NCBI GenBank assembly: GCA_017470525.1
Contig: JAFUYM010000040.1
Coordinates: forward strand, 1 to 46,309
Reading direction: 5' to 3'
DNA from: Bacteroidaceae bacterium
GTDB taxonomy: Bacteria > Bacteroidota > Bacteroidia > Bacteroidales > Bacteroidaceae
Length of the DNA stretch: 46,309 bases
A model generated the notes under the pieces. The model saw only the letters and a program-made list of their open reading frames with translations, was not told the DNA's origin and made no database searches. Below are positions 7,519 to 32,294 of this stretch, piece after piece; positions within the stretch are counted from its first letter, which is position 1, and each line of letters begins with the position of its first letter. The position numbers were made by a program, and so were the translations under genes.

Positions 7519-7545
7519 TCTATATGAATTCGCGTTTATTATCTT

Positions 7546-7554
7546 GCAAAGGTA
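7546..7554 (-). promoter_or_regulatory. -7 box TACCTTTGC for the AlbA_2 gene
   Basis: Exact match to TAnnTTTG. It lies 27 nt upstream of the chosen ATG, which supports the shorter protein. Confidence 0.7.
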
Positions 7555-7656
7555 CACTTTTTTATTGAACGTGGAAATGTTTTCCCGAAAAACTTCATCC
7601 CAACCATTCTTTTTCTTTGAAAAACCTGCCCTCTCATAACCATGCCCGCCTAAAGG

Positions 7657-7692
7657 GCGCACCCACAACCCTCGCGAGCCTCGTGGGTGCGC
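7657..7692. repeat. Palindromic repeat, copy B
   Basis: The 31-nt element identical to copy A occupies 7660-7690. Here the arms extend to 10 bp (7657-7666 and 7683-7692). It lies between the BspA-like gene and the AlbA_2 gene. Confidence 0.85.
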
Positions 7693-7788
7693 GCAGGAAA
7701 AGTTTCCCAATAGAGCCGGGACACCAAAGAAAAACCGCTCACAACAAATACATTGCAAGCGGTTCCTCCACATTTGTGCTTGAAAGCA

Positions 7789-10700: not shown

Positions 10701-11472
10701 TGCTCATCACGCTGTTTGGGATGTTCACGGCTGTCAAGCCGCGACAATAATAGAAAGCATCATCACTGATACTTACCGTTCCATCTTTTATGTTGATTTC
10801 CGTATTGTCTGGCATTGTTCCTTTGTAATTGTATAAAACATTCCCCACATAGACAACCCCATCTTCTTGATTGTCATACCACGGTGTGTTATAGAAAGCC
10901 ATTTCGCTAATAGTTGTCACGCTGTTTGGAATGTTTATGGATGTCAAACCACTGCAACCAGAGAAAGCCCCAATGCCAATAGTTGTCACGCTGTTTGGGA
11001 TGTTCACAGAGGTCAACCCGCTGCAGCCACCGAAAGCAGAATTGCCGATGGATGTGACACTGTTGCCAATGTTCACAGAGGTCAAGCCGCTACAGCCAGA
11101 GAAAGCATTATAGCCGATGGATGTGACACTGTTTGGGATGGTCAATGAGGTTAATCCGCTGCAGCCATTGAAAGCATAACCGTCAATGGATGTGACACTG
11201 TTGGGAATGGTTACTGAGGTCAAGCCCCTGCAAACATCGAAAGCAGAACTGCCGATGCTCGTCACAGAATAGATGACACCTTTATACAAGAAGGATTCGG
11301 GAATAACAACTTCATCGGTGTATTTGTTTTCACCACTTGTTACTATTGCGTCATGACTTCCAGTTTTTAAGTTATAATAGATACCATCTATTACAACATC
11401 ATACGCATTTGCATTAATAGACAGTAACACTCCCTGTGCCACCATCAAAAGTTTTAGTAATGTTTTTTTCAT
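7789..11472 (-). CDS. BspA-like leucine-rich-repeat surface protein
   Basis: 1227 residues. The signal peptide (MKKTLLKLLMVAQGVLLS) is followed by 30 BspA-type LRR_5 units of about 23 residues with the pattern IPNSVTSIGxxAFxxCxGLTS (about residues 50-920). Four units are interrupted by a loop beginning TPWY or by a DSRNNCNSIIETASNTLIAG block. Next comes a beta-rich domain, an InlB-like module (YTVTYMIDEEVYKTYTVEYG, ending GYIFSGWD), and a C-terminal tail (IFTLDGKRVEKLQKGVNIL, then VKKVFVK) like the sorting signals of type IX secretion substrates. BspA-type proteins are cell-surface adhesins that bind fibronectin, fibrinogen or other bacteria. Near-identical DNA repeats suggest ongoing copy-number change. 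The start lies only a few nt after a probable terminator of the upstream structured RNA. Confidence 0.93.
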   Translation of the reverse strand: MKKTLLKLLMVAQGVLLSINANAYDVVIDGIYYNLKTGSHDAIVTSGENKYTDEVVIPESFLYKGVIYSVTSIGSSAFDVCRGLTSVTIPNSVTSIDGYAFNGCSGLTSLTIPNSVTSIGYNAFSGCSGLTSVNIGNSVTSIGNSAFGGCSGLTSVNIPNSVTTIGIGAFSGCSGLTSINIPNSVTTISEMAFYNTPWYDNQEDGVVYVGNVLYNYKGTMPDNTEINIKDGTVSISDDAFYYCRGLTAVNIPNSVMSIGSFAFYGCNLTSVNIPNSVTSIGDRAFNSTPWYDNQEDGVVYVGNVLYNYKGTMPDNTEINIKDGTVSISEDAFSGCSNLTSVTIPNSITSIGDGAFWVCSGLTSITIPNSVTSIGNNAFSNCHGLTSITIPNSVTSIGNNAFSNCHGLTSITISNSVTSIGNNAFSDCHGLTSITIPNSVTCIGDYAFYYCLGLTSVTIPNSVTSIGRDAFSYCGGLTSLNIGSSVTSIGSYAFSYCRNLTSVSIPNSVTGIGQYAFRDCSGLSSITIPSSVTGIGNGAFRDCSGLSSILVENGKPVYDSRNNCNSIIETASNTLIAGCQNTIIPNSVTSIDINAFAGCSSLTSANIPSSITSIGDHAFYDCKGLTSLTIPNSVTSIGYGAFSGCSGLTSIFVEKENPVYDSRNNCNSIIETASNTLIAGCQNTIIPNDVTSIDDDAFSYCSGLTSITIPSSVTSIGSGAFLYSGLTSITIPNSVTSIGISAFDSTPWYNNQEDGVVYLGNVLYKYKGTMPNNTEINIKDGTVSISDYAFYNCRGLTSVTIPNSVTSIGGGTFNGCSNLTAVNIPNSVTSIGDWAFYGCYGLTSVTIPNGVTTIGRYAFSSCYGLTSVTIPNSVTSIDYGAFGNCWSLTSVICHATKVPTTDTETFYSPYLANATLYVPEASIDAYKTTEPWSSFGTIIPLEEENIEIVPMEEETEIAFADNMEEGQNLSGVVIDNIYFNLNAEGEDGFLAEEKCVVVSSVVSEEQLETVVGKDVNDEAVKENFNGLIMEVTAGKGTISITIQTVGSYVLNVKIGDGEVQTYTQSERGTVEIPYMTNDTSYVYIYGTILKSADKDGKLRVLANEAENYIKIYSIKWTPTMPSYTVTYMIDEEVYKTYTVEYGADIAEEAAPEKEGYIFSGWDAIPTTMPAHDVTITGKFTFVDGIADIHAEDGNTQIFTLDGKRVEKLQKGVNILRMGDGTVKKVFVK
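10488..10612. repeat. 125-nt direct repeat inside the BspA-like gene, copy 1
   Basis: Appears identical to 10764-10888, 276 nt away. A diverged third copy covers about 9117-9241. It encodes the TPWYDNQEDGVVYVGNVLYN block and the following NIKDGTVSIS strand. Confidence 0.8.
10764..10888. repeat. 125-nt direct repeat inside the BspA-like gene, copy 2
   Basis: Same sequence and orientation as 10488-10612. A crossover between the two would remove 276 bp (92 codons) in frame. Confidence 0.8.
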
Positions 11473-20010: not shown

Positions 20011-21147
20011 TTAGAAATCGGGAAAGTCGTTCTTGGCAGTTTTTACCGCAACACACTCCATTTCAATGAGCCAAGTGGGACGACAAACAGGAGCGAGAGT
20101 GATGACGTATGGGATATGAGGGAACTTCTCTTCAAAGAGTTTCTGTACAATCTGATAATCAGCACCGTCGCGCAGATAGACAACTATCTGCATCACATCA
20201 TCGTATGTCATTCCACCTTCTTCAAGCAACTTCTCTACATTTTCCCACATACGGTAGGTCTGATTCACGATATCGCCTACGTGTATCACCTCACCTTTGT
20301 TGTTGATGGAGGCTGTACCTGAAATGTAAATGTGGTTGCGGTCGCCATACTGCATCAGTGTGCCACGTTCGAAGGTCACGCCATACTCAATGGTTCTGTT
20401 GAGGTGCGACAATGCGTAAAGGTAACGTTGCTGTTGGGGCTGGAATCCAGTCATGGCATAACTACCCAGTTGTACCAGTGCTTTCGGGTCGGCTGGTGTG
20501 CCGCCAATACCTGTGGAAGCGATGTAGTGAGTGTCGGGTGTGAGTCCCTGTTCCATGAAACATTCACGGCGTGACTTGACCAATCCATTATATTGTGTAT
20601 CGACATCGCGCACGAAGAACCAGGTGCGGATGCAGTTCGCTTCGAGGGTGGCGTTGAAGAGTTTGAGGGTGTCGATGTAAGTGAAGAGGGTTTTCCACGT
20701 CTGCATGTAGGAGGTGTCGGCAGTGGTGTTCATAAGTCCCATCGTCCAGATGTGCTGATAGCCATTGTGAGAAACAACGGTGGAGCCGTTCATGTTGCTG
20801 ATGTCGGTGCCTCGTTGCAGATAGAGCCAAACAGCGATTTTGGAACCGTCGAGCGGTGGCTGCTGGATGTAGGAGATGGTACATGGGTCGTTTTCTTTAA
20901 TGAATGGCACCTGATTGGTGGCATCGCTCAAGAAATAACGCTTGAAGACCGTTTTTGCACCTGACAATTCAGGCAGAGCCATGAGGTGGCTTTCGGCTGT
21001 CTGTATGCGTGAGAGTTGCCCAGAGAAAACTTCGCCTCTGGGTGCGATGTGGAGAATAGCATGATACTCGGTCACTTCGCCAGCGGTGAAATGGGTGAGT
21101 TCGATGCGCGCTCCGATTTCTTCTATGTTGATTGCTTGAAATTCCAT
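20011..21147 (-). CDS. Rid-family (YjgF/RidA-like) domain protein
   Basis: 378 residues from the ATG at 21147 (MEFQAINIEE). The C-terminal 130 residues match the Rid fold (MTYDDVMQIVVYLRDGADYQ, FPHIPYVITLAPVCRPTWLI, then EMECVAVK). The longer N-terminal part resembles proteins of the FkbO/Hyg5 chorismatase type, which are Rid-related, so a hydrolase or lyase on a small molecule is possible; I cannot decide from sequence. No signal peptide is seen with this start. The -7 box TACCTTTGC lies at 21155-21163, which excludes the longer frame and leaves a leader of about 5 nt. Confidence 0.75.
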   Translation of the reverse strand: MEFQAINIEEIGARIELTHFTAGEVTEYHAILHIAPRGEVFSGQLSRIQTAESHLMALPELSGAKTVFKRYFLSDATNQVPFIKENDPCTISYIQQPPLDGSKIAVWLYLQRGTDISNMNGSTVVSHNGYQHIWTMGLMNTTADTSYMQTWKTLFTYIDTLKLFNATLEANCIRTWFFVRDVDTQYNGLVKSRRECFMEQGLTPDTHYIASTGIGGTPADPKALVQLGSYAMTGFQPQQQRYLYALSHLNRTIEYGVTFERGTLMQYGDRNHIYISGTASINNKGEVIHVGDIVNQTYRMWENVEKLLEEGGMTYDDVMQIVVYLRDGADYQIVQKLFEEKFPHIPYVITLAPVCRPTWLIEMECVAVKTAKNDFPDF

Positions 21148-21297: not shown

Positions 21298-21972
21298 CTA
21301 TGTATTGTATAGAAGGTGCATGACAAGTATGCTGATGTCGGCAATGATGAGGAGAACTGTGTACTTCTTCATTCGGGGAACAAAGAGAAGGCACGTGAGG
21401 ATGAAGCAGAGGATGGGAGGAACCATGTACCAAGGAACTGCATTGACGAGCAGTTCTGTCTGGATGCGGAAATCCGATAGTGGTTGGTCGCCTTGCGAAA
21501 GGGGGTGGTAAAGTTCCCCTTTGGTGAGCAGGGCAACGAGGGTGAGTCGTTCGTCGATGTCGGGGTACTTGTCGGGAGGTAATCGGTAGTTCCCTTCTTC
21601 ATCGAAGAAGTCGGCAAATCGGGCGTAACTGCTGTGGATGCCCAGTTGTTGGCACACATTGGGGTCGGTGATGCGTATCATCGCCACGTCTTTCCAATCT
21701 TCAGGATAGAGTGCCCATGAGAGCATGACTTGTTCGGGAGAAAGCCCTTTCCATGAATTTTTGCCCGTTAGTTGTTGGGTGAACTGCGTGGCAGGTGTAT
21801 TGATGGGGCAGACACGGTTGTGATAGACGACTTGCACCGTGCGCATGGAATCGGCTTGCGACCGTTCCACCACACGGATGCTTGCTGTCAGGTTGCAGGA
21901 GATGCAAATGCTGGCAAAGGCAAGTATCAAGCATCGGCTGCGAAAGGTGTTCTGTCCCATGAGTTGTTTCAT
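21298..21972 (-). CDS. Truncated CcsBA-like cytochrome c biogenesis protein
   Basis: 224 residues. An N-terminal membrane segment (CLILAFASICISCNL), a periplasmic domain, and two C-terminal helices (WYMVPPILCFILTCLLFV and YTVLLIIADISILVMHLLYN) are visible. The periplasmic part (NRVCPINTPATQF, LTGKNSWKGLSPEQVMLSWA, YPEDWKDVAMIRI) resembles the linker between the ResB and CcsA halves of fused System II cytochrome c synthases. Both the ResB barrel region and the heme-handling WWD domain are absent, so it cannot be a complete synthase by itself. Its ATG overlaps the stop of the upstream cytochrome gene by 4 nt, so it is translationally coupled. A remnant, or a specialised helper, are both possible. 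Confidence 0.6.
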   Translation of the reverse strand: MKQLMGQNTFRSRCLILAFASICISCNLTASIRVVERSQADSMRTVQVVYHNRVCPINTPATQFTQQLTGKNSWKGLSPEQVMLSWALYPEDWKDVAMIRITDPNVCQQLGIHSSYARFADFFDEEGNYRLPPDKYPDIDERLTLVALLTKGELYHPLSQGDQPLSDFRIQTELLVNAVPWYMVPPILCFILTCLLFVPRMKKYTVLLIIADISILVMHLLYNT

Positions 21973-22712
21973 TCTTTTGCCCCTCCGTCAATCCATGATT
22001 TGATGATATTGAGGAAGGGGGCGTAGGCATCATCTGCAAACAAGCCCATGTGTGAGTAGCCTACATTATCGTCACCCTCAGTAATCACTTTGTACAAGAA
22101 ACTGTTCTCCGCATCACCAGGGATGACGCGAGTTCTGGTGCTGTCCTTCTGCGCTTTCATCCCGACCAAACTGCTGTAAGCATGTTCTGCCGTAAGGTCG
22201 AGGTTGGCGGTTGCACGTTCCGAGGAGTGGCAACGGGAGCAGTTGGTACCTGTTCCTTGAAAAATGAACTGGTTGATGGCTCCGAACATGCCGACATTCA
22301 GTGTGCCCACGTCAATCTTGATGGTGTCGGCATAACGCTGGTTTTCGGGTATCTCATAAGAGTAAAGGGTGGCAATTCTCTTGCGGAGCGTATTGACCAC
22401 CACAATTTCCACCGTGTGGGCATTAGTTGGCACATTGGACAGTTTCAACACCTGCACCGTATCATTGGCTGAAGATGGCAACACCTTCTGAATCAGTGAA
22501 TAGTTGCTCTCGTCATCGAAACAGGCGGCTGCCACAGAATAGGTGCCGTTCCATGTGTTCAGTGATTTGAAAGTGCCCGTGATTTGTACGTTATAGGAAT
22601 CTTCGGTGTTCACATACACAGGGTCATCCACATGCCCGTCGTCGCAACTCATCAAACTCCACGTTCCTGCTGTGACGAGAAGGACACTCATTATATATAT
22701 ATAGCGTTTCAT
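21969..22712 (-). CDS. Mono-heme c-type cytochrome lipoprotein
   Basis: 247 residues. A lipobox (SLMSC, Cys23) follows a signal peptide. An immunoglobulin-like beta domain fills about residues 35-150. A C-terminal domain carries one heme-c motif CSRCH (158-162), and a possible axial Met lies in SHMGLF. Heme attachment needs periplasmic maturation. The gene is fifth in an operon with porins, an imelysin-family protein and a di-heme protein, and overlaps the CcsBA-like gene. It probably passes electrons to or from the di-heme partner at the membrane surface; the direction is unknown. Confidence 0.8.
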   Translation of the reverse strand: MKRYIYIMSVLLVTAGTWSLMSCDDGHVDDPVYVNTEDSYNVQITGTFKSLNTWNGTYSVAAACFDDESNYSLIQKVLPSSANDTVQVLKLSNVPTNAHTVEIVVVNTLRKRIATLYSYEIPENQRYADTIKIDVGTLNVGMFGAINQFIFQGTGTNCSRCHSSERATANLDLTAEHAYSSLVGMKAQKDSTRTRVIPGDAENSFLYKVITEGDDNVGYSHMGLFADDAYAPFLNIIKSWIDGGAKE

Positions 22713-22748
22713 TGTTTCGTCATTTATTCTCTTTCAGAGACTTCCCCG

Positions 22749-23963
22749 TTAGAAAGTGTACTGAAGCATCACAGTTGCAGAGTGTTTTGCCACACCGAGG
22801 TCGTCATTGTCGCGGTCGAGTTGTGTCTCGTGTCCTGTGCGACCAATGTACTGATACATGGCAGAGAGTTTCAGCCCTGTACCTTTAATGAAATAGTTGA
22901 CACCCACGGCAGGCATATTCAAGACACCGTCTTTACCGCTGCTGTTGCGGTCGAGGAAGTCATATCGGAGTGCCACCTGTGTCTGGGGAGCCACAAAATA
23001 GCCGCCTTGAATGTAGCCACCGAAGTAGTCGAACTTGTCCTGAATTTTCTGACGGTCGGTGAATCCCACGTGCATATAGTAAAACTCTCCACCCAAGTAA
23101 AGTTTCTTGTAGATCCATGTGGCTTCAAGTCCGTAACGTGCGTCGTTGGTGCTTTCGCTTTCACTCTCCACGTTCAGGTTAGCTGATGCAGCCAATTGGA
23201 ACTTGTTTTCATTCAAGAGTTTGGGATTGCCTTGAGTGGCTGGCATCGCACCCATCGGTGCCCATGTGAAACGGGTGGCATAGAGAAGAGAGGGAATGTG
23301 CCAATCGTCGGAGAGCGTCTTGGTGGCAGTGTTCACCGTGGCACCTGTTCCATTGAAGAGACCTGCTTCATAACCCCACCATTTACCAATTTTACCATGA
23401 GCCATCACACCGAGGTCGAAGCCTGTGCCAATCTTGGGAGTCACGGCATTGAGCACATAGGGCATGATGGTGGTGGCGGTGAGAGAAGTAGGAAGGTTGG
23501 GCATCAGTGTCTCGCCCAAAGTGGTGAGGTAGGCATGGCTGAAAGGAGTCTTGAACTTACCCACCTTGATGGCAAAGGCATTGCTTGCCTTCACGTCGAA
23601 CCATGCTTGCTGTAACAAGGCACCACCTGACTGGGAGGCATTGATGGAGAGGTTATAGGTGACAATCTTGTACGCCTTTCCAGTGAAGCCTAATACAGCG
23701 TATGGGAAAGAGAAGCCGGAGTTTGCCACATTGTCCTGATTGTAGGCTTTGTCCAGCCCTTCATCGTCATAGTAGTTGAAGTTGGCTGCTGTTTGAAGCA
23801 TGAGGTAAGGCTTGAAAGAGAAATTGCCATCCTTGCTTTCCACTTGGAACATACGGTCGGAACCGATGGTGACAACGCCATTGTCAGCGTCGAAATGATC
23901 GCTTTGTGCAGATGCGGTGAGCGATGTGAGTGCAGCGAAGGCTGCGATATAGAGTGATTTCAT
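22749..23963 (-). CDS. Outer-membrane porin (porin O/P-like)
   Basis: 404 residues with a signal peptide (MKSLYIAAFAALTSLTASAQ). Alternating beta-strand patterns run to a C-terminal strand ending in aromatic Phe (HSATVMLQYTF), as in outer-membrane barrels. Segments such as FKPYLMLQTAANFNYYDDEG, VGKFKTPFSHAYL and VALRYDFLDRNS fit the phosphate-selective porin O/P family, although the substrate cannot be read from sequence. It is the second porin of the operon, 70 nt downstream of the di-heme gene. Confidence 0.82.
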   Translation of the reverse strand: MKSLYIAAFAALTSLTASAQSDHFDADNGVVTIGSDRMFQVESKDGNFSFKPYLMLQTAANFNYYDDEGLDKAYNQDNVANSGFSFPYAVLGFTGKAYKIVTYNLSINASQSGGALLQQAWFDVKASNAFAIKVGKFKTPFSHAYLTTLGETLMPNLPTSLTATTIMPYVLNAVTPKIGTGFDLGVMAHGKIGKWWGYEAGLFNGTGATVNTATKTLSDDWHIPSLLYATRFTWAPMGAMPATQGNPKLLNENKFQLAASANLNVESESESTNDARYGLEATWIYKKLYLGGEFYYMHVGFTDRQKIQDKFDYFGGYIQGGYFVAPQTQVALRYDFLDRNSSGKDGVLNMPAVGVNYFIKGTGLKLSAMYQYIGRTGHETQLDRDNDDLGVAKHSATVMLQYTF

Positions 23964-24033
23964 TGTTTTGTTGAGTTTTTATGGGGAATTTTAGGAATAA
24001 TGAGGGTTCTGAGAATGAGGGGAAACGATGAGG

Positions 24034-25587
24034 TTAGAGCGATTCGAGGAACTTGATGAGGGCTTCTCGGTCGGCTCTGTCCATCTTCTTGAAGAGATTC
24101 TTGCTGGCTTCGCCTTCGCCACCGTGCCAAAGGATGGCTTCGGTGAAGTTGCGGGCACGTCCATCATGCAGGAAGTGGGTATGTCCGTTCACCTTCTTCT
24201 GCAAGCCGATGCCCCAAAGAGGAGTGGTGCGCCATTCGTTGCCTCGTGCCAAACCGCTCACGTAGTTATCGTTCAAGCCCACGCCCATGATTTCAGAACC
24301 CATGTCGTGAAGCAGATAGTCAGAGTAGGGGTGAATGGTTTGACTGCCGAGCCAAGGGAGTTCGGTCCCATTGAGCAGGGTGGCTCCACGTGGACGAGTG
24401 TGGAGTGTGGTCACGTGGCAAAGGTGGCACTTGGCATTATAGAACGCCTGTTCACCCTTTGTGATGGCATCCCGTTCGCTCACGGTGATGATTGAGCCGT
24501 CAGACTTTGTGAGCGTCACCTGTGTGGTCTTGCTGCCTAAACGACGGGCAGGAACGCCGAGTGAATGCAAGTAGAGGTCCACACATTCCATGTCTTCGGT
24601 GGAGACATCGAGTTGGTCATACGTGAGTCCCATCATGGAACCCTCCACCATCTGGTATTGTCCTTCGCAGATTTCCTCTGGATAGCGCGAGTTGGTGGCA
24701 CCCATGTCGGAAGAGAAACCCAGTTCGACCGTCAGGTCAAGGTGCTGTGCCTTGTTGCCAGAAAGACCAACCCCCTTCACACCTTTCTCGGTGATGTAGT
24801 TGCATTTGCCTGAAATGCCATATTCGGGATAGTTGCTCTTGGCTGCCAATTGCTCAATCTCGTTGCGGTCAATCGCCATCATCTGCCCCATGCCGACGTG
24901 GCGCAAAGGAATGCGGACGGTGCAGAAAAGGTCTTCTGGCTTGATTTCCACAGAGTCTTTCTTGATGTCGTCCCACATCTTCTTGTACCATTGAACCACG
25001 GTGTAGTTGGGTTTGGCGAGTTCATACACTTCCCCGTCGGGGAATTGTCCTTTCTCGTATGCCCAACGCACCTCTAACTTGCCTTCGGCAGTCACACCGT
25101 AGATGGTTTGGTCGTGGAGCACACGACCGTAGTTTTGGAAGAAAACGCCGTTCTTTCTTGCCACATATACAAGCATGGCAGACATTCCATTGGTGCCTGA
25201 ACCATAGACGGGTGTTCCATCATCATCTGTGCCGATGCGATTCCACACACCCGGATTGGTGCGTCCTGCATTCATGTGACAACTGCCGCAGGAATAGCCG
25301 GCATAGACAGGTCCATAGTTGTCGGTCACGTTGTCGTAGAGACGGTCACCCGTGTTGAAGCGGGTGGCGTATGTGCCTGACAACCATTCGGCATCGGTGT
25401 CGAATGCTTTGGACGAGTTCATGAAAATGGTTGATGTGCCAGCCGAGAGCGCGTAGTTCTCGAGTTCTCGCGAGTGGGTTTCCAAAAAGTTGTCCACCCC
25501 CTCCGTGTCGTCCTCGCAGGAAGTGAAAACCGTCACAAGCCCTAGACTCATGGCAAGCCATCCAACACAATTGGTTAATTTACTCAT
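24034..25587 (-). CDS. Di-heme oxidoreductase-like lipoprotein (DUF1111)
   Basis: 517 residues. A lipobox-like FTSC (Cys24) ends the signal peptide. Two heme-c motifs are seen: CGSCH (100-104) in YSCGSCHMNAGRTNPG, and CHLCH (387-391) in FYNAKCHLCHVTTLHTRPRG. The C-terminal region (TPLWGIGLQKKVNGHTHFLH, then DGRARNFTEAILWHGGEGE) is diagnostic of the DUF1111/di-heme oxidoreductase family, related to MauG and di-heme peroxidases. This family is often encoded next to imelysin proteins, as here. Possible roles are iron or copper oxidation or peroxide reduction at the membrane. A hairpin at 25627-25665 lies between it and the imelysin gene. Confidence 0.88.
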   Translation of the reverse strand: MSKLTNCVGWLAMSLGLVTVFTSCEDDTEGVDNFLETHSRELENYALSAGTSTIFMNSSKAFDTDAEWLSGTYATRFNTGDRLYDNVTDNYGPVYAGYSCGSCHMNAGRTNPGVWNRIGTDDDGTPVYGSGTNGMSAMLVYVARKNGVFFQNYGRVLHDQTIYGVTAEGKLEVRWAYEKGQFPDGEVYELAKPNYTVVQWYKKMWDDIKKDSVEIKPEDLFCTVRIPLRHVGMGQMMAIDRNEIEQLAAKSNYPEYGISGKCNYITEKGVKGVGLSGNKAQHLDLTVELGFSSDMGATNSRYPEEICEGQYQMVEGSMMGLTYDQLDVSTEDMECVDLYLHSLGVPARRLGSKTTQVTLTKSDGSIITVSERDAITKGEQAFYNAKCHLCHVTTLHTRPRGATLLNGTELPWLGSQTIHPYSDYLLHDMGSEIMGVGLNDNYVSGLARGNEWRTTPLWGIGLQKKVNGHTHFLHDGRARNFTEAILWHGGEGEASKNLFKKMDRADREALIKFLESL

Positions 25588-25626
25588 ATTTTTAGAATTA
25601 CATGCTTTTCAAAGAGATTGAAAACT

Positions 25627-25665
25627 CATTTCCCCCTTTAACCCACAAGAGTGAAGGGGAAAATG
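25627..25665 (-). repeat. Hairpin between the imelysin and di-heme genes
   Basis: CATTT and CCCCTT (25627-25638) can pair with AAGGGG and AAAATG (25654-25665) with a small bulge and a loop of about 15 nt. There is no long T-run, so it may set 3' mRNA stability within the operon and not terminate it. Confidence 0.45.
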
Positions 25666-25718
25666 TAATCATTTTCCACCTCCACTTTGGATAACTAACA
25701 GGGTTAATAATCGAATGC

Positions 25719-26915
25719 TTATTTAACGGTGCGTGGTTGTCCGTCCTTGTAGAGCAGGAACTCCAACGTGTGGAAACCACGGAGTGACTGAGCAGCCTCG
25801 ATGGCTTCGCTGTCCTCGTCGTAGTCACCTGACCATTCCATTTCTGACCATTTCTGCGATTTGAGCAGGTTGGCAATGCCGACAGCATCGAGTGGCCAAG
25901 AGTCCATGTTGGGGTCGAGACCTAACTCTGACACAGGACCGAAGAGGAATGCCTCAGAAGACTCCCAAGGCTGACGTGCATCGATCCATGCGGCACATGC
26001 TGCCTCGAAGGCACTGTTGGAAGGATTGGCTTGTAATGCTTTCACCGCAGTGAGCAGGGCATTGTTCTTCTCCACCAAATCCTTGTAAGTGGGCAGTGCC
26101 ACCACATCTACGAACTGATTAACGATGGCTTGTGCATCTTCCTCAGAGAGGTTGTCCTCGATGACACCCTTCAGTGCTTCGAGGCTTGCTGTCAAAGTAG
26201 CACATGCCTCCATTGCCTCTTCTGCTTCCTCAGAACCGATGTTGTTGCGGAAAGGTTGTGGGATGGCATCAATGGCGTTCCATGCAGCAATCGCATTAGT
26301 GTAAACAGCGGCACTGGCTTCGATAAGCGTGTTATTTCTGCTTGCCATCAGTGTGTACATGATGGAAGGGCTGGTCAATGACTGAGGAACAATCTGATTG
26401 GGGTCGCCTTCAAAACGCGTACCACAAATGGAATTGATGATGGAGAGGATGTTGTTCTTGTAGTCATCGCGAGAGTGCCAAGAGTACCAAGACTCCACTG
26501 CGTAGAGTGCCTTGTTCTTCTGACCGGAAGTCCAATAATCGACTGGCTCACCGATTTTTGCGGTACCAACTTCATTGGCAATGTCGATGCATCCGTCGAT
26601 AATCTGCTCCACACAACCTACAGCGGAAGTGAAACCTGATGCAGAGGTATGATTCTTGAAGGCTTCAGCAAAACTGCCTTTCCATTCATCATAGAGATTC
26701 TTTGAGTCGTTGGTCAGCAACTGAGCCACATTCACAGCATAATTACCCCAAGCGGCTGCGTTGGAAGAAGTGTAGTCAAGGCTTTGAGCCTCTTCTTCCG
26801 TTAACTCTGTTTCATTGTTACCATTGTTGTTGTTGTCATCGTCGTCGCCACATGAAACGACCGAGAAACCGAGTCCCAAAACGAGGAGACCCATAAGAAG
26901 GAAATTCTTTTTCAT
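25719..26915 (-). CDS. Imelysin-family (M75-like) lipoprotein
   Basis: 398 residues. The lipobox VVSC (Cys22) is followed by an Asp/Asn-rich spacer (DDDDNNNNGNN). Two helical-bundle halves follow. The family signature GxHxxE appears as GFHTLE at 380-385, and the segment WIDARQPWESSEAFLFGPVS with DPNMDSWPLD (about 311-345) is typical. Imelysin-like proteins are linked to iron uptake (EfeO relatives), and their conserved His/Glu probably bind metal. It is second in the operon, between the first porin and the di-heme gene, which supports a metal-handling role. Confidence 0.92.
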   Translation of the reverse strand: MKKNFLLMGLLVLGLGFSVVSCGDDDDNNNNGNNETELTEEEAQSLDYTSSNAAAWGNYAVNVAQLLTNDSKNLYDEWKGSFAEAFKNHTSASGFTSAVGCVEQIIDGCIDIANEVGTAKIGEPVDYWTSGQKNKALYAVESWYSWHSRDDYKNNILSIINSICGTRFEGDPNQIVPQSLTSPSIMYTLMASRNNTLIEASAAVYTNAIAAWNAIDAIPQPFRNNIGSEEAEEAMEACATLTASLEALKGVIEDNLSEEDAQAIVNQFVDVVALPTYKDLVEKNNALLTAVKALQANPSNSAFEAACAAWIDARQPWESSEAFLFGPVSELGLDPNMDSWPLDAVGIANLLKSQKWSEMEWSGDYDEDSEAIEAAQSLRGFHTLEFLLYKDGQPRTVK

Positions 26916-26972
26916 TTTTTCTGTTTTTTATTGTTAGTTATTGATTTTCAATGATTCAATTGTTTGCCGTTC

Positions 26973-28283
26973 TCACTTCTTCCAGAACCATCCTGCCCAT
27001 GCTACGCCAATGGCAAACTCGTTCTCGTTGTTGTATTTGCCACCACCGATGCGACGGCTCGTGTAGTCGGCTTTCACCACCAATTGGGGCAGCGCGCGCC
27101 AGTTCATGCCCACCACCCACATGGAAGTCTTCAGACGGTCATCTGCCACATAGGGCGAGAGAACGTCTTCCTGAGCGTTGTAGTATTCATAACGCCCAAA
27201 AGGAATCAGTTTCGGACAGCGGGCATCGTTCACAATGCCTTGGATGTTCAAACCCAGTTCTCCGCCGAAAGCCACCGCCTTGTGAGCCACGGGCGTGAGG
27301 CGAGAGTAGGGCGATTTGTTGCTGAGTTTACCGTTTTTGCTGCTGAGCACATTGCTGTTGGTGAGGTTGCCCCACAGGAAGTTGGCACGTGTCTCCACAT
27401 ATTTATTGATATACTGTCCGTCGAGGTTGTAGATGCGTACAGGCATCTTTCCAAGCCCATCATACGTCTGGCTCTTGTCGGCATTGTCACCCACATTGGC
27501 ACAGTAGTAGAACGCTGCACCGAGACGAAGTCCCTGCACACCGCGCCAGTTGATTCTTGCCACATAGGCAGGGCTGGTGAAGTTCTCCTCCTCAAAGATG
27601 CCCTGCTTGCCGCCTGCCGCCCATGTGTTGCGGTCGAAGCCGTTCGCGTTCAAGCCGTTCACAATCTGCACCTGATAGTCGAAAGTGGCATACTTCTTTC
27701 CGAAAGTTCCGAAGAACTCCAAGCCTGTCTCATGCCATGTGTTCGGCAGGATGGTTGTCTCACCTTCAGGGCGAACCGTGCCGAAGAAGTTGACTGGCTC
27801 ATGATGTGAATTGTTCTGACCAACAGGCACGATGATGTGACCTGCACGAACATTGAAGGCTCTGTCTATCAGTCGGGTAATGTGGAATTGTTCCAGTGCC
27901 ACTTCACCTCCACGTTCCACCTCGGTTTCATACTCACCGTTTTCCGTGTTCTCCAGTTCGTAAGCCGTTCCGACGCCACCGCTCTCGAACTCGATTTCTG
28001 CACCGAGAATCCATTTGTCTGTGAATTTGTAGTCGCCAGCAATGACGAATCGGGGAATGCTGATGGTGTTGCGGCGTTCCTTCGGATTACCTTCCGAAGC
28101 ACCATAAAAACGGTTGCTGCCATAATTCTTGAAGGCTGCCACCATTTCGCCATAACCACCAATGCGGAACTTGTTCCATCCGCCATACTGAATGCTGTCT
28201 TGTGATGCTTGTGCCATGACGTTGCCTGACAGAGCAATGGCACCCATTATCAATGTACCTCTTAATACTCTATTAATACTCAT
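26973..28283 (-). CDS. Outer-membrane porin, first gene of the operon
   Basis: 436 residues with a signal peptide (about 1-25, ending NVMAQA) and beta-barrel strands to the C-terminus (FAIGVAWAGWFWKK). Segments such as FRIGGYGEMVAAFKNYG, FTDKWILGAEIEFESGG and RAGHIIVPVGQNNSHHEPVN fit Bacteroidetes putative porins. It probably opens the outer membrane to a substrate handled by the imelysin and di-heme lipoproteins. The promoter at 28309-28346 carries the same upstream motif as feoAB. Confidence 0.82.
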   Translation of the reverse strand: MSINRVLRGTLIMGAIALSGNVMAQASQDSIQYGGWNKFRIGGYGEMVAAFKNYGSNRFYGASEGNPKERRNTISIPRFVIAGDYKFTDKWILGAEIEFESGGVGTAYELENTENGEYETEVERGGEVALEQFHITRLIDRAFNVRAGHIIVPVGQNNSHHEPVNFFGTVRPEGETTILPNTWHETGLEFFGTFGKKYATFDYQVQIVNGLNANGFDRNTWAAGGKQGIFEEENFTSPAYVARINWRGVQGLRLGAAFYYCANVGDNADKSQTYDGLGKMPVRIYNLDGQYINKYVETRANFLWGNLTNSNVLSSKNGKLSNKSPYSRLTPVAHKAVAFGGELGLNIQGIVNDARCPKLIPFGRYEYYNAQEDVLSPYVADDRLKTSMWVVGMNWRALPQLVVKADYTSRRIGGGKYNNENEFAIGVAWAGWFWKK

Positions 28284-28308
28284 TGCATCGGTAATTTTGA
28301 AATCGAGT

Positions 28309-28346
28309 GCAAAGTTACCGACATTAAAAAACCTTCACAATACCCA
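28309..28346 (-). promoter_or_regulatory. Promoter of the porin-imelysin-cytochrome operon
   Basis: TGGGTATTG (28338-28346), whose TTG serves as the -33 element, then 20 nt and TAACTTTGC (28309-28317). The feoAB promoter has the same layout. Confidence 0.75.
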
Positions 28347-28451
28347 ATTTTGGTAAAAAGGCACATGAAAATGAGTATTTTTTCGTTTCCGATACCCACT
28401 CCAACAAAAGAGATACCCAAACTTTTTGCCGTTATACCCAATTTTGAGTAT
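28340..28451. promoter_or_regulatory. Phased ATACCCA operator-like repeats
   Basis: ATACCCA begins at 28340, 28392, 28413 and 28434. The last three are exactly 21 bp apart, and 28340 is 52 bp (about five helical turns) from 28392. An opposite-facing copy, ATGAGTAT, begins at 28371, another 21 bp away. The outermost site is part of an imperfect 18-bp palindrome (28434-28451) and the innermost of one at 28341-28355. Sites on one DNA face suggest cooperative binding by a regulator. This is the main content of the 330-nt gap 28284-28613, with palindrome copy C. Confidence 0.6.
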
Positions 28452-28494
28452 CGGTTTCGGTGGTTGTCGAGGCTCCCGGTTCTCTTCTATGTAA

Positions 28495-28526
28495 GCACCC
28501 ACAAAGTTCGCGAGCCTTGTGGGTGC
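28495..28526. repeat. Palindromic repeat, copy C
   Basis: Perfect 10-bp arms (28495-28504 with 28517-28526). It matches copies A and B at 27 of 31 positions in the same orientation. A related half element (CTTCGTGGGTGTAGGCTC) follows at 28538-28555. Confidence 0.75.
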
Positions 28527-28613
28527 AGGCTCATGAACTTCGTGGGTGTAGGCTCAAAGGGCGGCAAGGTGCGCGCTTTGAGAGGATGTGGAATCAGGGT
28601 GATTGGCTGATTG

Positions 28614-28787
28614 TCAGCCTTGTTTTTCACAGGGCTTGTCGTTGCAATGACAAACACCTCCACTATGAGGGCAAGAGCCACAATTGCAGCCCTTGTTCTT
28701 GCCCGAAAACTGCCGATAGAAGTAGCGGATGAGCACCGCTGCGGTGGCGGCAAGGATGAGATAAACGATGAGGTCTTGAATGCCCAT
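28614..28787 (-). CDS. FeoB-associated Cys-rich membrane protein
   Basis: 57 residues, starting 10 nt after the feoAB stop. One transmembrane helix (residues 4-22, DLIVYLILAATAAVLIRYF) is followed by a basic stretch and a Cys-rich tail (CNCGSCPHSGGVCHCNDKPC). This matches the small FeoB-associated Cys-rich family found next to feoB in many anaerobes. It may stabilise FeoB or bind ferrous iron or an iron-sulfur cluster. Confidence 0.9.
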   Translation of the reverse strand: MGIQDLIVYLILAATAAVLIRYFYRQFSGKNKGCNCGSCPHSGGVCHCNDKPCEKQG

Positions 28788-28796
28788 AAGCGTCTG

Positions 28797-31112
28797 TCAG
28801 AAAAGAGAACCGATTTGATAAACAGCCATTGAGGTGAGCCAGGCAAGCAGGGTGGTGTAAAGGGCGGTGAAACCTGCCCACTTCCAACGACCCGACTCGT
28901 TTTTGATGCCGATGCAGGTGGGGATGCAGGGGAAGTAGAGCAACACAAACACCATAAAGGCAAAGGCAGCCAGAGTGCTCATGCCGCTGGTGGTGATGTC
29001 GCCATGATAGAGCACAGCCATTGTGCTCGCCACAATTTCTTTGGCACCGACACCCGTGATGAGTGCCACGCCTTCCTTCCACTGCAAGCCGCATGGACGG
29101 ATGATTGGTTCGATGAACTTACCGATTTGCCCGATGTAACTGAGTTCCATCTGCTGTTCCTCAGTCGCCTCAGCGTGATGGGGGAAGTAACTGAGTGCCC
29201 ACACCACGATGCTGGCAACCAGAATGGTCGTACCCATCTTCTTCAGATACTGCTTGCCTTTCTCCCACGTGTGACGGCTCACGCTCTTGGCAGACGGCAT
29301 ACGGTAGGGAGGCAACTCCATCACGAAAGGACTGCTTTCGCCCCTCACCACAAAGCGGCTGAACAACTTTGCCATCAGCACACTGAACACGATGCCGATG
29401 AGGTACATGCCAAACAGGATGAGTGCCGAATTTTTCGGGAAGAAGGCGGTGATGATGATGATGTAAACGGGCAGTCGGGCAGAGCAAGACATGAGCGGGA
29501 TGATGAGCATCGTGATGAGCCTCGACTTGCGGTCTTCGATGGTGCGGGTCGCCATGATGGCAGGAATGTTGCAGCCAAAACCCATAATCATGGGGATGAA
29601 CGACTTGCCGTGCAAGCCCATGCGGTGCATGATTTTGTCCATGATAAAGGCAGCGCGCGCCATGTAGCCGCTGTCCTCCATCCACGAGATGAACGCATAG
29701 AGAATCATGATGTTAGGCAGGAAGACTATCACGCTGCCCACACCGCTGATGATGCCATCGACAATGAGGTCTTTCAGCGAACCCTCGGGCATCCACTCAC
29801 CCACGATTCCACCGAGCCATTCCACACCCATGTCTATCCAATCCATCGGGTATTGACCGATGTTGAACGTGCAGAAGAACATGAGATACATGAGCAGCAG
29901 GAAGATGGGATAGCCCCACACCTGATGGGTGACCACGGCATCGATGCGCTTGGTCATCAACCGCTTGTAGCGATGCACTTTCTGGAAGGTCTCCTTCATT
30001 GCACCTTGCACGAAGCCATACTTCGCGTCGGTGATGGCAGATTCGCTGTCCTCGTCGATTTCTTTCTGAATGGCACGTTGACAGGCATCCCTCTCGGCAA
30101 GGATGGCGGCTTGGTTATCCAACTGGCGGATGATGCTCTCCACCTGACGGTCGTTCTCCAAAAGTTTGATGGCAAGGAAGCGAGCCGAATAGTTCTGGTG
30201 GGGCTCTGGATTTTGGCGGATGAGAGCCTCGACCTTGGCAATGTTCTCTTCGAGCAACACTCCATGATTCACGTGGATATGTCTGGCAATCTTTTGCTTA
30301 CCCTCCGTGATTTCGATGATTTGATGAAAGAGTTCCTTCACGCCTTCACCCGTGCGACCGACGGTTGGAACGATTGGCACACCGAGCAGGGTGCCGAGTT
30401 GATGGCGGTCAAGTTGGTTGCCGCTTTCGCGCAGTTCGTCATACATGTTCAGTGCCATAATCATCGGCACGTCCATGTCGATGAGTTGGGTGGTCAGGTA
30501 GAGGTTGCGCTCCAGATTGCTGGCATCCACCACGTTGATGATGATGTCGGGATGCTGCTCGATGATGTATTTGCGCACATACAGTTCTTCGGGCGTGTAG
30601 GCAGACAGGGAATAAGTGCCGGGGAGGTCCACCAGATTGAAGTGATACCCCTCGAAGTCAAAGTGTCCTGCCTTGGCATCGACGGTCACACCCGAATAGT
30701 TGCCCACCCGTTCGTGGGCACCGCTGGCAATGTTGAACAGCGAGGTCTTTCCGCAGTTGGGGTTACCGACGAACACGGCGGTCAGTTCATGCTCTTTCAC
30801 ACGAGCCAAACGATGGATGACATCCTCGCATTCATCGGCAGGGATGCCTTTCTGTTCAGGGTGCGAAGCCTCCCATTCCTTTGCCTCTTCTTCGCTGACC
30901 ACCTCGACCAGTTCTGCCTCCGCACGGCGCAAACTGACCTCATAATCCATGATTTTGTATTTCACGGGGTCGTGCAGCGGAGCGTTGAGCAACACTTCCA
31001 CACTCTTCCCTTTGATAAAGCCCATTTCGACGATGCGTTTGCGGAAACCTCCGTGTCCCATCACACGTACAATCACGCCCTTCTCGCCCGTCTTTAATGC
31101 CGAGAGTTTCAT
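28797..31112 (-). CDS. feoB: Ferrous iron transporter, FeoA-FeoB fusion
   Basis: 771 residues from the ATG at 31112 (MKLSALKTGE). Residues 1-75 are a FeoA (SH3-like) domain. The G domain has G1 GNPNCGKT (116-123), G3 DLPG and G4 NMYD. The membrane part has typical FeoB segments (MGFGCNIPAIMATRTIED, PLMSCSARLPVYI, TGVGAKEIVASTMAVLY). It takes up Fe2+ across the inner membrane with GTP-dependent gating. FeoA fused in front of FeoB is common in Bacteroidetes. The 17-codon upstream extension is excluded by the promoter at 31132-31169. The gene is divergent from the hemerythrin-LuxR regulator gene and followed by the Cys-rich partner. Confidence 0.97.
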   Translation of the reverse strand: MKLSALKTGEKGVIVRVMGHGGFRKRIVEMGFIKGKSVEVLLNAPLHDPVKYKIMDYEVSLRRAEAELVEVVSEEEAKEWEASHPEQKGIPADECEDVIHRLARVKEHELTAVFVGNPNCGKTSLFNIASGAHERVGNYSGVTVDAKAGHFDFEGYHFNLVDLPGTYSLSAYTPEELYVRKYIIEQHPDIIINVVDASNLERNLYLTTQLIDMDVPMIMALNMYDELRESGNQLDRHQLGTLLGVPIVPTVGRTGEGVKELFHQIIEITEGKQKIARHIHVNHGVLLEENIAKVEALIRQNPEPHQNYSARFLAIKLLENDRQVESIIRQLDNQAAILAERDACQRAIQKEIDEDSESAITDAKYGFVQGAMKETFQKVHRYKRLMTKRIDAVVTHQVWGYPIFLLLMYLMFFCTFNIGQYPMDWIDMGVEWLGGIVGEWMPEGSLKDLIVDGIISGVGSVIVFLPNIMILYAFISWMEDSGYMARAAFIMDKIMHRMGLHGKSFIPMIMGFGCNIPAIMATRTIEDRKSRLITMLIIPLMSCSARLPVYIIIITAFFPKNSALILFGMYLIGIVFSVLMAKLFSRFVVRGESSPFVMELPPYRMPSAKSVSRHTWEKGKQYLKKMGTTILVASIVVWALSYFPHHAEATEEQQMELSYIGQIGKFIEPIIRPCGLQWKEGVALITGVGAKEIVASTMAVLYHGDITTSGMSTLAAFAFMVFVLLYFPCIPTCIGIKNESGRWKWAGFTALYTTLLAWLTSMAVYQIGSLF

Positions 31113-31131
31113 GTCCTTTTTAATTTTGTGT

Positions 31132-31169
31132 GCAAAGTTACCACCTTTATCTTTGCAAAACAATACTCA
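31132..31169 (-). promoter_or_regulatory. Promoter of feoAB
   Basis: TGAGTATTG (31161-31169) with TTG as the -33 element, 20 nt, then TAACTTTGC (31132-31140). The layout and the TGRGTAT motif match the promoter of the porin-imelysin operon. Confidence 0.75.
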
Positions 31170-31239
31170 TTTGTCGGTAATTTCTGCCCGAATCGGAAAA
31201 TAATCCTTCATTTATCGCCCCTAATTCCCAATTCTTCAC

Positions 31240-31248
31240 TAACTTTGC
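31240..31248 (+). promoter_or_regulatory. -7 box TAACTTTGC for the hemerythrin-LuxR gene
   Basis: Exact -7 box, 65 nt before the ATG at 31314. It does not carry the TGRGTAT motif. The divergent feoAB promoter is about 100 bp away. Confidence 0.65.
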
Positions 31249-31313
31249 ATTGTATTAGCATTAAGGTTTACGTGATTCTGAATAGTATTTACCCTCAAAA
31301 CACATTCAGAATT

Positions 31314-32294
31314 ATGGTTACGTACAGAAAAAGTTATATGGCTGGTCAATACAAGTCAACAGACAAACTTAGTTATGTGATTGCCAATGACTATCGCCTT
31401 CTGCAGGTGATGAGCCGATTCGGCATTTCCTTGGGTTTTGGTGAGAAAACTATCATGGAAGTGTGCCGCCAGTGCGGTGTGGATGCTGACACATTCCTGA
31501 CTATCATCAACTATGTGAAGGACGGAGCGGAAAACCGTCCGCAGCGTGTGGACAAGGTGAGTGTAGCCTCTGTGTTGGGGTATCTGAAACGTACCCACAC
31601 CTATTTTCTCGGCTATCTGTTCACCAACATCCGCTTTCATCTGCTCAATGCCATTGACTGCTCGGTGCAGAACGAGATTGCCTTTCTTGTGCTCAAGTTC
31701 TTCGATGAATACGTCGAAGAGGTGCGCAAACACATGGAGTATGAGGAATCGACGGTGTATGCTTATGTGCAGAAACTGCTTGATGGCGAATTTGTCTCCA
31801 TCGACAACAGCCACCTGCTTTCCCGCCACCATGAAGCCATCGAGAGCAAACTGAAAGAGTTGAAGAACCTGTTCATGCAGTACTATCCGCAAACGGAGAA
31901 CAATGAAAAACTGAATGCGGTCATCATCTCCATCTATCAGGCAGAAGAGGATTTGAGCATCCACAGCATGGTGGAGGACAATATCTTCGTGCCAGCCGTT
32001 CGTCGTCTGGAGCATCAGGCGAGATTGCGGCAGCCAGCCGACGACGACCCGCAAAATGGCGGTGCGTCGGGTGGAAACGAAGAACAACTTTCGGAGCGTG
32101 AAAAGGAAATCGTTGCTTGTGTGGCAAAAGGCTTGGCAAACAAGGAAATTGCCGACCAACTCTGCCTCTCTGTCAACACCGTCACCACCCATCGCCGCAA
32201 CATCGCCCGCAAATTGCAGATTCATTCACCTGCGGGTATCACGATTTATGCCATCGTGAACAAACTGGTGACATTGAACGAAGTGAATATATGA
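31314..32294 (+). CDS. RIC-like hemerythrin domain fused to a LuxR-type HTH regulator
   Basis: 326 residues. Residues 19-68 resemble the N-terminal ScdA/RIC domain ([20 protein letters not shown]) but without its paired Cys. Residues 90-235 form a hemerythrin-like four-helix bundle with metal-ligand candidates H95, H140 and E143/E144 (HMEYEE), H172 or H173, H217 and E221 ([11 protein letters not shown]), as in YtfE/RIC di-iron proteins. After a Gly/Asn linker, residues 258-320 are a LuxR HTH ([40 protein letters not shown]). A di-iron sensor of iron, NO or oxygen that controls transcription is the likely role (inference). It is divergent from feoAB and ends 16 nt before gmd. An alternative start is the ATG at 31338. 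Confidence 0.85.

Follow-up and report, generated by a model that had tools for sequence, protein, structure and literature searches.

A candidate iron- and heme-uptake regulon of Bacteroidales with a hemerythrin-LuxR regulator and a predicted small-RNA feedback loop

In Bacteroidales, imelysins occur in a circularly permuted form with a GxHxxE motif and are paired near-constantly with a DUF1111 protein (passages of PMC3143127). A Feo(AB) fusion and its Cys-rich partner in Bacteroidetes are described in part of PMC8749426, and the di-iron ligands of YtfE are given in a section of PMC9268430 as H84, H129, E133, H160, H204 and E208. Counterparts of all three lie together in a contig of a Bacteroidaceae bacterium (JAFUYM010000040.1, assembly GCA_017470525.1; 46,309 nucleotides, called the window hereafter), where a preliminary description made from the sequence had proposed a co-regulated iron/redox locus at 21298-32294. 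We propose, with a probability of about 0.6, that this locus forms the centre of a regulon for iron and heme uptake, which is run by hemLuxR, a gene for a hemerythrin-LuxR protein, and that a small RNA (sRNA) of the regulon exerts positive feedback on hemLuxR.

Every part named in the preliminary description was found within 21298-32294. hemLuxR (31314..32294, plus strand; a second in-frame ATG is at 31347) is divergent from a gene for a FeoA-FeoB fusion, the ferrous iron transporter (28797..31112, minus strand; FeoA, FeoB_N, Gate and FeoB_C domains, TIGR00437 at 637 bits), which is followed by a FeoB-associated Cys-rich protein (28614..28787, minus strand; PF12669, E = 1.7e-9) and by the imelysin/di-heme operon that begins with porin1. 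Co-regulation, the central claim of that description, gains support: feoAB and the imelysin operon share a precisely spaced promoter element, which is also present in unlinked loci and in other families. The element consists of an inverted repeat, TACYnA-N4-TnRGTATTG (the box), a spacer of 20 bases and a -7 element, TAnnTTTG. By pattern matching, it was located at 31133..31183 (feoAB promoter) and 28310..28362 (imelysin-operon promoter), both on the minus strand; the two matches in the window compare with 0.00 in 100 shuffles. A further palindrome, CGATACTCAAAATTGGGTATAA, lies upstream of porin1 at 28432..28453 (minus strand; 17/22 to the consensus). The region 28300-28480 contains more GGGTAT/ATACTC half-sites besides this second palindrome and is possibly a multi-site operator.

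For comparison we used 37 genomes of the same genus and an order sample of 393 Bacteroidales genomes (Gnnn and Lnnn denote genomes and loci; G000 is the window's genome, 83% complete). Genes in relatives were called with a simple longest-open-reading-frame (ORF) script and no gene finder; 3/57 imelysin and 3/53 feoAB loci, which yielded no recognised ORF, were dropped from the counts. In the discovery set (loci L033-L081 and the window), 7-mers of the CAATACCTA and ATACTCA types were enriched upstream of porin1, feoAB and the regulator gene. A scan for palindromes found 37 sites, compared with 4.5 in Markov copies, mostly near the same three genes, with extra palindromes near porin1 and hemLuxR. 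We then searched with the pattern RGTATTG, 20 bases, TAnnTTTG, which does not require the left half-site. It was present upstream of porin1 in 21/30 cases, of feoAB in 18/25, of the regulator gene in 1/50 and of other genes in 1/482, and control patterns with spacers of 15 and 25 bases gave no match. Among 43 GTATTG-TAnnTTTG pairs within 60 bases of each other in these promoters, the spacing was exactly 20 in 40.

Outside the genus, the strict box preceded 16/53 porin1/imelysin operons, 7/51 feoAB genes, 1/31 regulator genes and 0/389 other genes. The left half-site TACYnA was conserved there, though the pattern did not demand it, and sites unselected for the left half show inverted heptamers in the 7-2-7 geometry of NarL-type operators (TACYnA-N4-TnRGTA). 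In an independent set fetched after the pattern had been fixed (L112-L151 and L221-L224 for imelysin, L172-L220 for feoAB), the strict box was found at 11/44 imelysin and 7/49 feoAB loci. A whole-genome search of 30 of the 37 same-genus genomes gave 141 matches and none for the pattern read backwards, a lenient control because the reversed pattern is not promoter-like; several matches confined to single genomes are uncertain.

The window's genome has seven matches, two of which are those of feoAB and porin1. Another precedes an operon for a lipoprotein, HmuY (PF14064, E = 1.7e-27) and a TonB receptor (L156 666-4113; G000:C81, stretch from 25000). The lipoprotein has a sub-threshold Calycin_like match, and G020 likewise has the box together with genes for the lipoprotein and HmuY (L158). 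One of the seven matches precedes the sRNA described below. The box before a peptidase/SusC-like pair, in identical sequence on two contigs, is an uncertain target; the names of both genes were assigned by sequence reading and not by search. The identical stretch of promoter and peptidase/SusC-like genes (L154 and L155; G000:C38 and C53) represents a duplication or an assembly overlap. A box before an HU-like gene was rejected as a probable chance or basal-promoter match, its left half-site being missing.

That hemLuxR is a divergent hemerythrin-LuxR gene, as first described, was upheld by Pfam matches to Hemerythrin (PF01814) and GerE (PF00196). In the protein, a NarL/LuxR-type helix-turn-helix (HTH) is fused to a di-iron domain of the RIC type. 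Positions 11-222 of a profile of 16 relatives (A2) matched ScdA 3-220 (E = 7e-10), and YtfE was matched too. Six residues, H95, H140, E144, H173, H217 and E221, the di-iron ligands, are invariant in 16/16 relatives; they are matched to those listed for YtfE in the section of PMC9268430 cited above by order and spacing, not by structure. With ScdA_N-like and HHE domains and six di-iron ligands, the sensor has the fold of the RIC (ScdA/YtfE) family; at 43.3 bits it falls far under the cut-off of the RIC repair equivalog TIGR03652 (204.7 bits) and is not a member of it. Among 17 loci mapped outside the genus, the RIC-like and LuxR halves are adjacent genes in 12 and fused in 5. In the split form, the RIC-like protein has about 235 residues and the LuxR protein about 200; the N-terminal half of the latter gave no Pfam receiver match in the five proteins tested and is absent from the fused regulator.

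The neighbour of the regulator gene shifts between feoAB and imelysin within one genus. It is beside feoAB in 23/37 same-genus genomes, beside a canonical imelysin/DHOR pair (DHOR, di-heme oxidoreductase) without feoAB in five others (G005, G009, G012, G016 and G023), and about 7 kb from imelysin/DHOR in G004. In the order sample, imelysin is present in 56/393 genomes, 53 of which have a FeoB match, and linkage counts are lower bounds because contigs are short. Imelysin and a regulator homologue are no more than 10 kb apart in 11/56 genomes from 10 families; split regulators are beside feoAB in G044, G057 and G338 and one gene off in G059 and G038. Conserved linkage of all parts, which the preliminary description had named as a check, holds in 7/37 same-genus genomes but not across the order, where feoB is near imelysin in 1/56 imelysin-bearing genomes, namely the window's own; a general feoAB-imelysin linkage across Bacteroidales is rejected on that count. 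The box at the imelysin promoter was found in 15/28 genomes with a close-type regulator and in 0/22 with the distant type only (Fisher test uncorrected for phylogeny, G000, G147, G273, G306, G209 and G214 omitted, and the 37%-identity cut for the close type chosen after inspection of the data).

An alignment of ten loci that have an orphan box delineates an RNA in which invariant blocks are accompanied by a small hairpin and a terminator stem. When 17 of the 24 distinct copies were aligned, 9/19 predicted pairs showed at least one double change; no open frame is visible in the invariant blocks. Scanning a collection of species genomes with the 24-base core alone, blind to the box, gave 26 stretches, all from metagenome-assembled Bacteroidales, Bacteroidaceae or Prevotellaceae, many of them from ruminants; several of these genomes coincide with those of the whole-genome box search. 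The box was upstream of 24/24 testable copies (22 strict, 2 with a spacing of 21), the remaining 2 being cut by the locus end, and was present in 0/486 control stretches. The window's genome has the sRNA with its box at L152 6413-6611 (G000:C4, minus strand). Its predicted length is about 160 nucleotides from the -7 element to the terminator, and its predicted fold (z-score -3.15) leaves the core unpaired. No Rfam family was found for L166, L164 and L167 at E-values up to 1 (two sub-threshold matches lay outside the sRNA), nor for the copy in L152 at gathering scores.

Three further observations concern the sRNA. An ORF of about 167 residues overlaps its region in 2/26 copies; L244 and L256 (and L084) represent a variant without the 5' TACTCAT block, with the ORF over its end, perhaps by read-through into the gene. 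In G007, hemLuxR and the sRNA gene are separated by about 3 kb, the latter being just past fcl (L166, L245). A second invariant block, AATCTTTACTCATAATAATA (the 5' block, e.g. L088 1579-1600), is complementary to ATTATTATGAGTAAAG, which resembles a translation start; no convincing target of this block was found among 530 gene starts.

The invariant sRNA sequence AGAATTACGTAAACC is complementary to GGTTTACGTRATTCT of the hemLuxR leader. When 525 gene starts were ranked by predicted pairing, ranks 1-8 were all hemLuxR leaders; the other 18 of the 26 hemLuxR starts in the set ranked from 15 to 525. Mean pairing over the 26 was -14.4, against -11.8 for 40 shuffled seeds (standard deviation 0.7, lowest -13.7). 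In 2.26 Mb of partly overlapping locus DNA, the motif GGTTTACGTVATTC occurs 48 times, 37 times in sRNA copies and 11 times in hemLuxR leaders (9 distinct genes), and nowhere else. In the window, the predicted sRNA-binding site, GGTTTACGTGATTCTG, is at 31265..31280 (plus strand), which pairing ranks and motif distribution support, and the predicted -7 element of hemLuxR, TAACTTTG, is at 31240..31247 (plus strand); the latter was identified by sequence reading, and other long-leader relatives have a similar element in a similar place. The distance between the site and the transcription start, as placed from the predicted -7 element, is thus about 10 bases.

Among 24 same-genus hemLuxR genes surveyed (lower-identity copies of G005, G009, G012, G016 and G023 left out; long and short leaders sorted by eye), 12 have the long leader or a variant of it. 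All 12 long leaders have the sRNA site as part of the 5' arm of a hairpin; the 3' arm extends to an AUG, which is the in-frame hemLuxR start in 11/12. In the window, the predicted hairpin (31271..31316, plus strand) pairs 31271-31283 with 31304-31316 and includes the start codon at 31314-31316. Leader folds of the 12 gave z-scores from -1.1 to -4.2. Covariation accords with the hairpin: 92.1% of alignment cells pair, 5/13 pairs changed on both sides, none of 500 shuffles reached this level, and slid structures paired in 31-48%. Pairing of each sRNA with its own leader was predicted at -17.5 to -27.0 kcal/mol, compared with -12.8 to -18.1 for the leader fold, and was the stronger in 10/10; this test covers the long-leader genomes with an available sRNA copy, all but G028 and G033. 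With a G000-type core, the G028 leader pairs at -25.0. In these predictions, therefore, the leader hides the start codon and the sRNA is complementary to the hiding strand, as in anti-antisense regulation.

The shared promoter, the sRNA, the hairpin and the complementarity, all obtained by computation and comparison, can be joined in one circuit. From the NarL-like geometry, the migrating linkage and the tracking of the box with the close regulator type, we infer that hemLuxR binds the inverted repeat, which overlaps the -33 region in its target promoters. It would most likely activate them. In the window's genome, its targets would be feoAB, the imelysin/di-heme/porin operon, the HmuY/TonB-receptor heme operon and the sRNA of about 160 nucleotides. 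The signal may be iron, nitric oxide (NO) or oxygen at the di-iron centre, and the lipoproteins of the imelysin operon may handle metal. The invariant core of the sRNA would pair with the 5' arm of the hairpin that holds the hemLuxR start codon; pairing would free the AUG and raise translation of hemLuxR, closing a positive feedback loop. We see about an even chance that, more broadly, a di-iron repair protein of the RIC family acquired the role of transcription factor when it was fused to, or paired with, a NarL-type HTH, that it runs an iron/imelysin/heme regulon of Bacteroidales, and that in ruminant-gut species an sRNA opens the start-codon hairpin of its own regulator as a self-amplifying iron or NO switch.

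Several observations weigh against this circuit. Loci are mutually related, and P values ignore phylogeny. Outside the genus, the strict box is missing at 37/53 imelysin and 44/51 feoAB promoters, and it seldom precedes the regulator gene itself (1/50; 1/31 outside the genus). An element overlapping -33 could fit a repressor too. Another factor, Fur or a different LuxR protein, might bind the box and hemLuxR be a mere neighbour or target. This is unlikely, though it would account for the box in genomes where the 16-sequence profile detects no regulator, G147 (imelysin; 86% complete), G015 (feoAB; 87% complete) and, in a looser imelysin form with spacings of 19-21, G273 (99% complete), and for the feoAB box, which does not follow the close regulator type, in G039, G376, G362 and G091, where the only regulator homologues are distant ones of 27-33% identity; many of the genomes also encode further LuxR-type HTH proteins. 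Such a factor is harder to reconcile with the core of the box, which has the 7-2-7 inverted-heptamer form of NarL-type operators and is unlike the Fur box, with the regulator gene lying beside box-bearing genes in many families while moving between feoAB and imelysin, and with the imelysin box tracking the close regulator type. Quite improbable is a reading of the element as the promoter of an alternative sigma factor (GTATTG, N20, TAnnTTTG) and not as an operator. The nearly invariable spacing and the position of GTATTG at the expected place of a -33 element would suit it, but the left inverted half-site, some 10 bases farther upstream, is conserved, porin1 and hemLuxR have additional palindromes nearby, and the -7 element is of the ordinary Bacteroidales type. 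That feoAB and the imelysin operon are unrelated neighbours by an accident of gene order is suggested by the order sample, in which feoB is near imelysin in the window's genome alone; the same spaced box at both promoters, in linked and unlinked genomes alike, makes this highly improbable.

On the RNA side, 12 of the 24 same-genus hemLuxR genes lack the long leader; the hairpin AUG of G035 starts a 5-codon frame and not hemLuxR; leader folds are weak in G017, G033 and G011 (z-scores from -1.1 to -1.8); and the G033 leader pairs poorly with the G000-type core (-9.6). The sRNA might instead repress hemLuxR through the 5' end of its mRNA, by decay or blocked initiation, and so form a negative feedback loop. 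The short distance of the pairing site from the predicted transcription start favours repression, and many sRNAs act in this way. We consider it doubtful, since the site covers the strand that sequesters the start codon and not the start codon itself, the hairpin is conserved with covariation, and duplex energy exceeds that of the leader fold in every pair compared. Release of the start codon by the sRNA stays our preferred explanation.

The imelysin/di-heme operon is on the minus strand throughout. Its first gene, porin1 (26973..28283), encodes a presumed outer-membrane protein and lies directly upstream of imelysin in 51/54 loci with a recognised imelysin ORF. The preliminary description had counted two porins: the second, porin2 (22749..23963), is a Porin_O_P protein (PF07396, E = 1.5e-54), whereas the label of porin1 is a guess from context because it has no match in Pfam, NCBIfam or PDB. 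The imelysin-family lipoprotein (25719..26915) was correctly placed in its family (M75, 165 bits), but its form is the circularly permuted PIBO type, in which the N- and C-terminal halves are swapped relative to canonical imelysins: residues 273-392 align with model positions 1-115, and the sequence preceding them aligns with positions 120-286. Residues 43-397 match the B. ovatus structure PDB 3n8u (E = 8e-107); the protein has SVVSCGDDDD at its N-terminus and RGFHTLEF near its C-terminus. The di-heme lipoprotein (24034..25587) belongs to DHOR/DUF1111, with 186.5 bits against PF06537 (cut-off 22) and two CxxCH motifs, CGSCH and CHLCH; a sequence search of PDB gave no relative. The frequent pairing of the two, stated at the outset as known, was evident in the order sample, where DHOR adjoins imelysin in 54/56 genomes (exceptions G154 and G257). 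A PSCyt1-type mono-heme lipoprotein (21969..22712; PSCyt1, E = 3.6e-5) is kept in relatives. A cysteine followed by at least two acidic residues is present in 23/31 imelysins, 16/29 DHORs and 8/15 mono-heme proteins; such a cysteine with acidic residues fits surface export signals. These sequences, like the published pairing of imelysin with di-heme proteins, are compatible with the proposal of the preliminary description that the lipoproteins may oxidise or capture, at the surface, metal brought in through the porins.

The core order porin1, imelysin, DHOR, porin2 and mono-heme gene is kept in 9/9 same-genus loci with a DHOR ortholog. hemLuxR and feoAB are upstream of the operon in 4 of the 9; for the remaining 5, the two are missing from the stretch or located elsewhere, or the contig ends. 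The same cluster occurs in many families outside the genus, with porin2, the mono-heme gene and the Rid gene variably present and often a full CcsBA. As the gene for a Rid/YjgF-family protein (20011..21147; PF01042) is part of the cluster in other families, we assign it to the operon on comparative grounds as its last gene, so that the operon extends past 21298, the end first given.

Between the mono-heme and Rid genes, 21298..21972 encodes a CcsB-type periplasmic domain without CcsA, described before as a CcsBA-like piece. Its relation to CcsBA stands through longer orthologs, but the CcsA domain is gone, and the window's protein has no Pfam match and is no CcsBA as defined by ResB with CcsA/Cytochrom_C_asm. 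Orthologs in five relatives have 476-489 or 660 residues and end in the CcsA region; by Pfam, those of L038 and L050 have ResB and Cytochrom_C_asm, and that of L034 has Cytochrom_C_asm alone. The short form (216-234 residues) occurs in the window, G025 and G035. Among these three, nonsynonymous divergence (dN) is 0.33-0.38 and synonymous divergence (dS) 1.5-2.0, the latter near saturation. As dN is well below dS, the short form seems to have been kept by selection in three species after loss of CcsA, and we rejected the idea of a dying pseudogene. A separate CcsA is encoded elsewhere in G025 and G035; none was found in the window's genome at its 83% completeness. Apart from the locus, 6130-11472 of the window (minus strand) encodes a BspA-type leucine-rich-repeat protein of 1227 residues, which adjoins an AlbA/Schlafen-type protein.

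If the proposed circuit is correct, it links feoAB and HmuY heme uptake with the imelysin/di-heme operons, which are poorly understood, and a di-iron repair fold serves as a genetic sensor. Regulator, operator, target list and sRNA would be supplied together, which would make iron control in a large bacterial group testable, and the question of imelysin function as well, as a single deletion would be expected to move all targets. To our knowledge, sRNA circuits are little known in the Bacteroidales group, to which such a loop would be added. Among open-literature papers searched by title and the beginning of the abstract, a scope outside which most subscription papers and all preprints fall, none was found to describe a regulator of the RIC-LuxR type, the box, or an sRNA linked to iron in Bacteroidales.

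The closest described relatives of the imelysin operon are the PIBO operons, which, as far as the passages of PMC3143127 go (structure PDB 3n8u), likewise combine a permuted GxHxxE lipoprotein with a DUF1111 di-heme protein and have been proposed to serve iron uptake; here, the operon would share its regulon with feoAB, heme-uptake genes and an sRNA, under a RIC-type regulator. Ferrous iron uptake by EfeUOB is similar in combining an imelysin-domain protein with a heme oxidoreductase in an iron-linked system. In contrast to EfeUOB, the operon in the window has outer-membrane proteins, and FeoAB is the nearby permease; no Pfam match to EfeU or a cupredoxin domain was found among the window's operon genes, and the unnamed genes of relatives were searched in part. 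hemLuxR resembles ScdA/YtfE, as described in the section of PMC9268430 used here, as a two-domain di-iron protein with six ligands, but in its type a LuxR-type HTH is part of the same protein or is encoded just after it.

The remaining likenesses are to regulatory systems. The box is like NarL-type operators in its inverted TAC... heptamers with a 2-base gap and in the response-regulator type of HTH, whereas its heptamer is TACYnAA and not TACYYMT. Iron sRNAs of the RyhB type likewise stand under a promoter of an iron-uptake regulon; the sRNA described here differs from them in having no Rfam match and in its predicted target, which is the regulator and not iron-using enzymes. As in DsrA-rpoS, the sRNA would pair with the strand of the leader by which the translation start is concealed. 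No sequence relation to DsrA is claimed, and the target here is the very regulator under whose predicted control the sRNA stands.

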